Shown here in pieces: positions 23,951 to 25,675 of a stretch of 64,000 nt of DNA. The DNA is from an uncultured delta proteobacterium (lineage in GTDB: Bacteria; Desulfobacterota; WTBG01; CAIYCZ01; CAIRTM01). Under the pieces are notes generated by a model. That model worked only from the letters and a program-made list of their open reading frames with translations, did not search any database and had not been told where the DNA came from. The DNA lies in contig CAIRTM010000022.1 of the NCBI GenBank assembly GCA_903881505.1, forward strand, positions 52,653 through 116,652. The letters run 5' to 3'. The position numbers and the translations under genes are program-made. How positions within the stretch are numbered: the stretch's first letter is position 1; each line of letters starts with the position of its first letter.

Positions 23951-25675
23951 TCATGGCGTTCGCGCAGGCATGGTGCGAATGAACGCGGCGATGTCTTCTG
24001 TCGGCACAAACGCACTGGCGGTTTTGCCGCAGCCGGGTTCAATGCCCATACGGCCGCCGGTCAGTATCTGGAAGCCTTCACGGATTTTCCCGTCCGGGCC
24101 GCGCTTCAGGCGGCCGCTCAGGCCTATGGGTGCTATTGTAGCATGCGAGCAGCCGTTCGGACATCCTGAAATGCGGATCGGGGCCGCAAAGTTGGCGGGC
24201 AGGTGCGCGCGCAGCAAATGCTCGGCTGCGTGCGTGTCGACGATCGCATGCGCGCAGAACGCTGTACCGGGACAGGATACAATATCAACACCTTCCAGCA
24301 GGGGTTTCAGCGCAGGGTTCGTACGCACGGCTGCGAGAACCGCAACGGTATCTGCGGCAAAGATGGAAATGCGGTGGTGGTTTTGAATACGCGCGCAGGC
24401 CTGTGACTGTGTGAGTGTCTCCGCAAGCGCGTCGGCCTGATCAGGGTCCAGAAGTCCGCAGGGAACATTCAGTTCGCAGGCGCGCTGCATGCCTGATGCC
24501 GAGAGTGCAAGCGGCGGTCCCGGCGGGAGCTGCGCTGCGCAGGAATCATATTCCTTTCTGAAAAGCGCGAGAAACGCCTCGTCGCCCAGTTCCTGCCTGA
24601 CATGGCGGAGCCGGGCCTTATGCCTGTTTGTCCGATTGCCCCGGGTGTGGAAGATGCGCAGGGCCGCCAGCGCAAGCGCGGGGATATCTTCGGGCCTGAC
24701 GCGGACAGCAAGCACGATCCCGGTTTCAGGACGGGCGCCAAGAGATCCCGCACCAATGAGCGTGACGGATACCTGAGCGTCGCGTACCTGCGCGACAAAC
24801 CCGAGATCATTGATATAGGGCTGTGCGCAGCCGCGAGCGCAGCCAGAAAAGCTGATTTTGAATTTCCGCGGCAGGCTGTAGACGCCTTTGAACGCCTCAA
24901 GCGTTTGCCTGACTGCGTCGGCAGCAGCGCTGAAGTCGACGCTTTCCGGGCACAGTCCGTTGCCGGGACAGAGCGTGATATTGCGCAGGGTGTCGCCGCA
25001 GGCGCCAAGGCCGGTGAAGCCGGATGCGGCCAGGTCGCGCTGCAGTTCAGGCAGGCGCTCAGAGGTGATATTGTGAAATTCAATGCACTGGCGTGTTGTC
25101 AGAAGCAGCGGCGTACCGCGGGTGTGCGCGCGCGCAAGGCCGGCAAGAGTCTGCCAGCCGCGGGCATCAAGCGCGCCGCCCTGAATTTTTATTCTTTGCA
25201 TCCACAGGCCTTTCCGGCGCTGGGCATAGACGCCGCTGAGCCTCAGCAGGCGGGTATCAGCGTACGCTGCCGCACAGGGAAATGCCGGTTCAGGATGCGC
25301 GGATGTATCTTCATTTGGAGCCGTCAATGCCTGTTCGGGGGCGTTCATCCCGCCGGGCATTACCCGGTTGGGGATGGAGCACTGGTTGATCAGTCTGCCC
25401 TGTGAATCGTGCATTTTCCAGACGATGTGATCTGGCCTGATGCGGGCTGAGAGGCGGTGGTGCGCTTCCGAAATCTGAAAGGGGAGTTCGATACTGAGCG
25501 CCTCTTTCGGGCAGGCCTTGACACAGGCAAAACAGTCCCAGCACTCGGCAGGCTCTCTCAGGCAGGCCTTGCCGCTGGTGCGGTAGAAAAGATCGCCGGG
25601 ACAGATCTCTTCGCAGAAACCCTCGGTGCGTTTGCCGCAGCCGTTGCAGCTTTCAAGGTCGATGCGTACGGTCAT
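23951..25675 (-). CDS. AprB-like diferredoxin domain fused to siroheme sulfite/nitrite reductase-like domain
   Basis: N-term CNGCGKRTEGFCEEICP...CWDCFACVKACP...IVWKMHDSQGRLINQCSIPNRVMPGG (AprB-like); C-term SiR repeats with C-x5-C/C-x3-C. Confidence 0.85.
   Translation of the reverse strand: MTVRIDLESCNGCGKRTEGFCEEICPGDLFYRTSGKACLREPAECWDCFACVKACPKEALSIELPFQISEAHHRLSARIRPDHIVWKMHDSQGRLINQCSIPNRVMPGGMNAPEQALTAPNEDTSAHPEPAFPCAAAYADTRLLRLSGVYAQRRKGLWMQRIKIQGGALDARGWQTLAGLARAHTRGTPLLLTTRQCIEFHNITSERLPELQRDLAASGFTGLGACGDTLRNITLCPGNGLCPESVDFSAAADAVRQTLEAFKGVYSLPRKFKISFSGCARGCAQPYINDLGFVAQVRDAQVSVTLIGAGSLGARPETGIVLAVRVRPEDIPALALAALRIFHTRGNRTNRHKARLRHVRQELGDEAFLALFRKEYDSCAAQLPPGPPLALSASGMQRACELNVPCGLLDPDQADALAETLTQSQACARIQNHHRISIFAADTVAVLAAVRTNPALKPLLEGVDIVSCPGTAFCAHAIVDTHAAEHLLRAHLPANFAAPIRISGCPNGCSHATIAPIGLSGRLKRGPDGKIREGFQILTGGRMGIEPGCGKTASAFVPTEDIAAFIRTMPARTP

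Follow-up and report, generated by a model that had tools for sequence, protein, structure and literature searches.

An AprB-like ferredoxin fused to a two-repeat sulfite reductase with siroheme-cluster cysteines in both halves

The window, by which we mean the whole 64,000-nucleotide stretch of DNA analyzed here, encodes a 574-residue protein in which an AprB-like ferredoxin is fused to a two-repeat siroheme sulfite reductase (SiR) carrying a full cysteine set in each half. We favor, with a probability of about 0.6, the reading that this is a ferredoxin-linked assimilatory SiR (AprB plus two repeats) in which the C-half would be catalytic and the N-half would hold a DsrA-like second center retained from an ancestor. 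An earlier, sequence-only reading of the same DNA had proposed two siroheme-[4Fe-4S] centers in one polypeptide as a possible ancestral-like state. That interpretation is partly supported: it was right in spirit (ancestral-like, two potential centers) but too strong if taken to mean two working centers. Published accounts hold that fused aSirs lost the N-half center (PMC10229431); here, phylogenetically scattered aSirs retain all of its ligands, and the graded series of four, three, two, and zero cysteines allows the order of loss to be studied. Such proteins also allow a second center to be probed in a soluble, single-chain enzyme instead of in DsrAB. In addition, the AprB::SiR fusion physically joins the reduction of APS to that of sulfite, two steps that even sister genera assign to the products of separate genes.

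Domain architecture and gene neighborhood

Pfam recognizes the NIR_SIR 4Fe-4S domain in two stretches of the window protein, and the genome search matched PF01077 to each SiR half separately, giving two SiR repeats in one chain as in two-repeat aSirs (Table 1). The protein is more than a sulfite reductase, however: the sequence-only reading overlooked residues 1–104, which form a separate AprB-type ferredoxin domain. This segment matches TIGR02060 (E = 6e-17), and since its 61.7 bits fall below the cutoff of 135.65, we term it AprB-like. Its PDB matches are the beta subunit of the Methanothermococcus PAPS reductase (MtPAPSR; 8a8o_C) and AprB (1jnr_B). As expected of AprB, it is a two-[4Fe-4S] ferredoxin encoded beside an AprA-like gene; the TGA of that gene, directly upstream, runs straight into the start ATG of the fused frame.

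Table 1. Coordinates of the fused gene, its domains and key residues, and its neighbors in the window
Feature	Position	Strand	Basis or remark
AprB-like ferredoxin :: two-repeat siroheme sulfite reductase fusion	23951..25675	-	574 aa, ATG start; frame kept in second species of genus
AprB-like 2x[4Fe-4S] ferredoxin domain, residues 1-104	25364..25675	-	TIGR02060 aprB E 6.1e-17; PDB 8a8o_C E 3e-16; 1jnr_B E 4e-12
Linker, residues 105-139	25259..25363	-	Variable; reading frame kept in both species
SiR N-half, residues about 140-383	24527..25258	-	PF03460 151-217 and PF01077 226-375; sulfite-binding residues and complete 4-Cys set
SiR C-half, residues about 384-574	23954..24526	-	Second PF01077 match; canonical catalytic siroheme-[4Fe-4S] cysteines
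N-half Cx5C, C236-C242, CPGNGLC	24950..24970	-	4/4 or 3/4 in relatives
N-half Cx3C, C279-C283, CARGC	24827..24841	-	Translation and alignment
C-half Cx5C, C468-C474, CPGTAFC	24254..24274	-	Translation and alignment
C-half Cx3C, C505-C509, CPNGC	24149..24163	-	Translation and alignment
R161, first sulfite-binding Arg (MjFsr R355 equivalent)	25193..25195	-	Invariant 35/35; role from PMC10229431
R231, second sulfite-binding Arg (MjFsr R423 equivalent)	24983..24985	-	Invariant 35/35; role from PMC10229431
K271 and K273, RKFK (MjFsr K460/K462 equivalents)	24857..24865	-	K273 is N in nitrite-reductase-type rows; role from PMC10229431
AprA-like (APS/PAPS reductase flavoprotein) gene	25676..27376	-	NF005331 654 bits, cutoff 557
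cysK, cysteine synthase	27384..28298	-	TIGR01139 412 bits, above cutoff
NIL-domain/ferredoxin protein of homocysteine synthesis	28301..28708	-	PF09383 and Fer4; role from PMC5764234
HcyBio (DUF39) homocysteine biosynthesis protein	28746..29957	-	PF01837 E 8e-154; role from PMC5764234
Second cysK	30015..30959	-	TIGR01139 456 bits, above cutoff
ThiF/MoeB-family adenylyltransferase, directly downstream	23178..23954	-	PF00899 E 5e-66; same place in L006, L007

The fused state is confined to one genus in our data. In five other genera of the family (G003–G007), aprA, aprB (an open frame of 114–150 aa), and the SiR gene are separate and adjacent; aprB and the SiR gene form one frame in the window's genome (G000) and in G001, two species of one genus, whose fused loci are that of Table 1 and L034 2277–3059. 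The G001 copy ends after 261 aa at a contig end. Amino acid changes between the two species fall in 13 of 104 AprB codons, 19 of 127 SiR codons, and 17 of 29 linker codons, and the linker indels are whole-codon. Such conservation of the AprB and SiR parts around a variable, in-frame linker is the pattern of a real fusion with a free linker. AprB-like matches occur in 175 of 395 sampled genomes of the phylum, and among the matches listed, a longer frame containing the SiR appears in G000 and G001 only. The AprB fusion is a more distinctive feature of the protein than its double cysteine motif. The open literature yielded no description of an AprB–SiR fusion or of aSirs with both motifs; subscription journals lay outside the coverage of that search.

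The surrounding genes are largely those of sulfur assimilation. The DUF39 and NIL/ferredoxin pair is known for homocysteine production in Desulfovibrio (PMC5764234). DsrA gave no match at the search threshold in the window's genome, where neither DsrAB nor a monomeric ATP sulfurylase (Sat) was found. The same genome encodes a PAPS_reductase-family protein, whose sequence suggests a CysD-like role and which is the sole hint of sulfate activation. Taken together, the neighbors, the lack of DsrA and Sat, and the CysD-like protein fit assimilation rather than respiration. The ThiF/MoeB-like neighbor may provide a sulfur-carrier activation step; in L006 and L007, two tandem copies of such an adenylyltransferase stand next to the SiR gene. 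Thiamine-synthesis genes (thiH, thiG, and thiF) lie on the same strand at 31527–34547 of the window, upstream of the sulfur-assimilation genes.

For the siroheme pathway, SUMT (uroporphyrinogen-III methyltransferase) scores above its cutoff in eight of nine family genomes, including same-genus G001. The 96.8% complete assembly of the window's genome has no SUMT match above the cutoff, which probably reflects an assembly gap. Elsewhere in that genome (L003 1006–1947, G000:C130), a 313-aa protein combines a partial NIR_SIR domain with a ferredoxin and also matches PCP_red (protochlorophyllide reductase) weakly; next to it lie two ORFs, one of 250 aa with a ferredoxin domain and one of 396 aa that looks flavodiiron-like by eye.

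Cysteine sets and sulfite-binding residues of the two halves

Translation confirms the eight cysteines on which the sequence-only reading was built (C236, C242, C279, C283, C468, C474, C505, and C509), with codons spanning 24149–24970. Its comparison with E. coli CysI was likewise accurate, as in the alignment the N-half columns of CysI read N, L, P, D and all four of its C-half columns are Cys. Across the five nearest full-length family relatives (46–52% identity), the four N-half columns are Cys throughout except at C242 of L009, which is Thr (19 of 20 cells). Among the other cysteines of the window SiR, 197, 400, 427, and 549 are never Cys in these relatives, and 226 alone always is. Because 19 of the 20 family cells are Cys while most other SiR cysteines are not kept, we consider the N-half motif real and under constraint, and translation and alignment together bear out a full ligand set in the N-half. 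The loss of C242 in L009, a member of the same family, indicates that a full set can be dispensed with in that protein. The catalytic Cx5C...Cx3C of the C-half, combined with R, R, K, and K in the N-half, is the residue pattern of an aSir; loss of the N-half cluster motif, the further trait ascribed to aSirs (PMC10229431), is absent from the window protein.

The catalytic basic residues are distributed unequally. Four positively charged residues bind sulfite in Fsr (R355, R423, K460, and K462 of MjFsr) and are conserved across SiRs (PMC10229431). Their equivalents in the window protein, R161, R231, K271, and K273, occur in the N-half only, and the mirror positions of the C-half are replaced (R161 by E401, R231 by V463, K271 by A497, and K273 by P499). 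DsrB also lacks Arg/Lys at the mirror positions, and DsrA combines Arg/Lys with four cysteines, like the N-half of the window protein. The DsrA site of DsrAB holds siroheme or sirohydrochlorin in a structural role (PMC10229431). Without C-half mirror Arg/Lys residues, two centers can amount to at most one catalytic and one structural or relay site, as in DsrAB. The proposal of two siroheme-[4Fe-4S] centers thus stands as far as ligand cysteines in both halves are concerned, but the second site has no counterpart of the Arg/Lys residues that bind sulfite. By analogy with DsrAB, the protein probably has one catalytic siroheme center and a retained, DsrA-like, non-catalytic second center.

An AlphaFold2 model of the full protein, built on a four-row alignment, reached a pLDDT of 44.9, too low to judge whether the N-half has a pocket. 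No relative with a full N-half cysteine set turned up among the solved structures searched. The nearest solved relative of a three-cysteine protein is M. tuberculosis NirA, which itself has lost the N-half cysteines in its alignment.

Distribution and ancestry of the N-half motif

All four N-half cysteines are present in 15 of 35 aligned two-repeat reductases, which were drawn from search hits so that fractions are no unbiased frequency; the others have three, two, or none. The C-half set is complete in all 35. Rows with four N-half cysteines comprise the window protein, four family members, L011 (from another family of the class), and three TusA-fused SiRs of about 800 aa (L042, L043, and L047). 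The remaining six (L045, L046, L062, L064, L069, and L072) carry one extra residue in the N-half motif, which turns Cx3C into Cx4C, and are about 780–890 aa long. The sequence-only reading had itself named a common occurrence of the motif in the SiR clade as evidence against its proposal. With 15 of 35 rows sharing all four cysteines, common is what the motif proved to be, and its uniqueness is rejected on this tally. By the same count, loss of the N-half motif is invalid as a defining feature for the whole aSir group.

Eight rows retain three cysteines (L009, L044, L052, L053, L055, L058, L081, and L082). In every one, the missing residue is the second Cys of Cx5C, replaced by T, A, D, N, D, T, D, or K, and thus often by Asp, Asn, or Thr. 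Loss of this Cys may be a consistent first step of decay, or the replacing residue may possibly be a non-Cys cluster ligand. Three non-Cys columns (F276, S277, and D464) track the four-cysteine state in the 35 rows, an association significant only without correction for relatedness; an independent-pairs test, with three pairs, has no power and was not significant. The link is suggestive and may serve as a lead only. D464 (24284–24286) lies in the C-half, across the interface, as the mirror of N232.

A single-protein query against genome contigs returned one true relative, the same-genus MAG, and scans of viral contigs found relatives with zero or three of the four cysteines only. A 1437-aa ORF of Vibrio nereis was discarded as a chance match, as it looks like a formate dehydrogenase and the SiR profile does not recognize it. 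Readthrough of a TGA stop in G313 and G275 was dismissed because the 450-aa ORFs are intact.

aSirs arose by duplication and fusion and reportedly lost one center (PMC10229431). In a tree built from the halves by a short search (92 rows; SH-aLRT the only support measure; starred branches are well supported), every N-half falls into a single group (97*) and every C-half into a second (99*), while DsrA and DsrB together make up a third (96*). Both halves of the window protein fall inside the respective aSir groups, which makes the protein an ordinary member of a single aSir duplication-fusion rather than a new Dsr-type fusion. Four cysteines are found in most single-repeat SiRs and in all C-halves. 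On a full-length tree built leaving out the four N-half Cys columns, the four-cysteine state requires four changes, of which starred branches force at least three; counting every state, the total is nine. The four-cysteine state is interspersed with states of three, two, and zero, and deeply separated groups retain it. The single-repeat SiRs, the half groupings, and the at least three changes therefore lend support to the suggestion of an ancestral-like state. It is much easier to lose the motif several times than to gain four cysteines at the right spacing more than once, which likewise argues for four as the ancestral number. Although the tree by itself does not separate gain from loss, the sequences are best read as showing an ancestral motif lost repeatedly, and the N-half center would then be a retained ancestral trait rather than an innovation.

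Proposed function and comparison with known systems

We propose that the window protein, together with the AprA-like flavoprotein, would convert APS (or PAPS) through sulfite to sulfide for cysteine and homocysteine synthesis. The siroheme-[4Fe-4S] of the C-half would be the catalytic center and would use the Arg/Lys residues of the N-half. The N-half cysteines would ligate a second, ancestral [4Fe-4S], probably paired with siroheme or sirohydrochlorin, whose function, like that of the DsrA center, would be structural or that of a relay. The clusters of the fused AprB domain may deliver electrons to both the AprA FAD and the SiR siroheme. We advance only tentatively the fuller reading of a single chain with two siroheme-type centers, one catalytic and one structural or relay, that would be an evolutionary intermediate between the self-complementary SiR dimer and one-center aSirs and that, through AprA and the AprB fusion specific to this genus, would form a single assembly taking APS to sulfide and drawing on shared [4Fe-4S] clusters.

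It is rather unlikely that the N-half cysteines bind a [4Fe-4S] without siroheme and simply relay electrons from the AprB clusters to the catalytic siroheme. All four ligands are present for such a cluster, and positions 401, 463, 497, and 499 of the C-half, which face the N-half pocket, differ from the residues that hold sulfite in the catalytic site; yet the same motif occurs in four-cysteine relatives without a fused AprB domain, and DsrB lacks those residues too while the DsrA site reportedly holds siroheme or sirohydrochlorin (PMC10229431). We find it more doubtful still that the motif is a relic whose cysteines hold no cofactor. Stepwise loss among relatives and the missing C242 of L009 are what a relic would leave behind, but near-complete retention in the family at about 50% identity, with most other cysteines not conserved, speaks against it, as does the persistence of all four in deeply separated groups. 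Nitrite as the substrate in place of sulfite seems very improbable, even though the top NCBIfam match is ferredoxin--nitrite reductase PRK09566 (155 bits, far under its cutoff of 594) and the top PDB matches are plant nitrite reductases. The window protein reads RKFK, with K273 a Lys as in E. coli CysI, whereas the NirA-type rows L058 and L082 read RKFN, with the Asn at the second Lys that marks NirA, and L082 adjoins nasA. A Lys here fits sulfite rather than nitrite, and so do the neighboring AprA, cysK, and homocysteine genes. A chain with two active sites, both sirohemes being catalytic, can be rejected despite the two complete cysteine sets, since neither the Lys pair nor the second Arg is present in the C-half of the window protein or of the other two-repeat rows.

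The preferred reading, a ferredoxin-linked assimilatory SiR with one catalytic and one DsrA-like center, places the protein among known systems as follows. It shares with E. coli CysI and NirA-type aSirs two fused repeats, catalytic C-half cysteines, N-half Arg/Lys, and the same tree groups; CysI, however, has none of the four N-half cysteines and works with CysJ as its partner, in place of which the window protein has its N-terminal AprB fusion. With DsrAB it shares the division of labor, in which DsrA has Arg/Lys and four cysteines and DsrB lacks Arg/Lys. DsrAB differs in its separate chains, inserted ferredoxin domains, DsrB CxnCCx3C motif, and own tree branch (96*); the window protein, a single chain with a canonical C-half Cx5C..Cx3C, is thus distinct from DsrAB. 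Fsr and small single-repeat SiRs have the same canonical Cx5C...Cx3C and catalytic Arg/Lys, but they have one repeat per chain in a self-complementary dimer, and Fsr is fused to an F420H2 oxidase rather than to AprB (PMC10229431). The Fsr arrangement, a single SiR repeat with F420H2 oxidase, is not that of the window protein. MtPAPSR of M. thermolithotrophicus likewise pairs an AprB-like ferredoxin with an AprA-like flavoprotein in assimilation (PDB 8a8o; PMC10322725); there, the 104-aa beta subunit stands alone as its own chain and the sulfite passes to Fsr, whereas in the window protein AprB is fused to the SiR itself.

The SiR–TusA proteins of the same phylum (L042, L043, and L047) resemble the window protein in having all four N-half cysteines and differ in having no AprB domain and, as seen in L042 and L043, a C-terminal TusA. 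This domain (PF01206) occupies residues 712–780 of L042 and 762–829 of L043 and was recognized by eye in L047; the fusion suggests that sulfur is handed over directly from the SiR.
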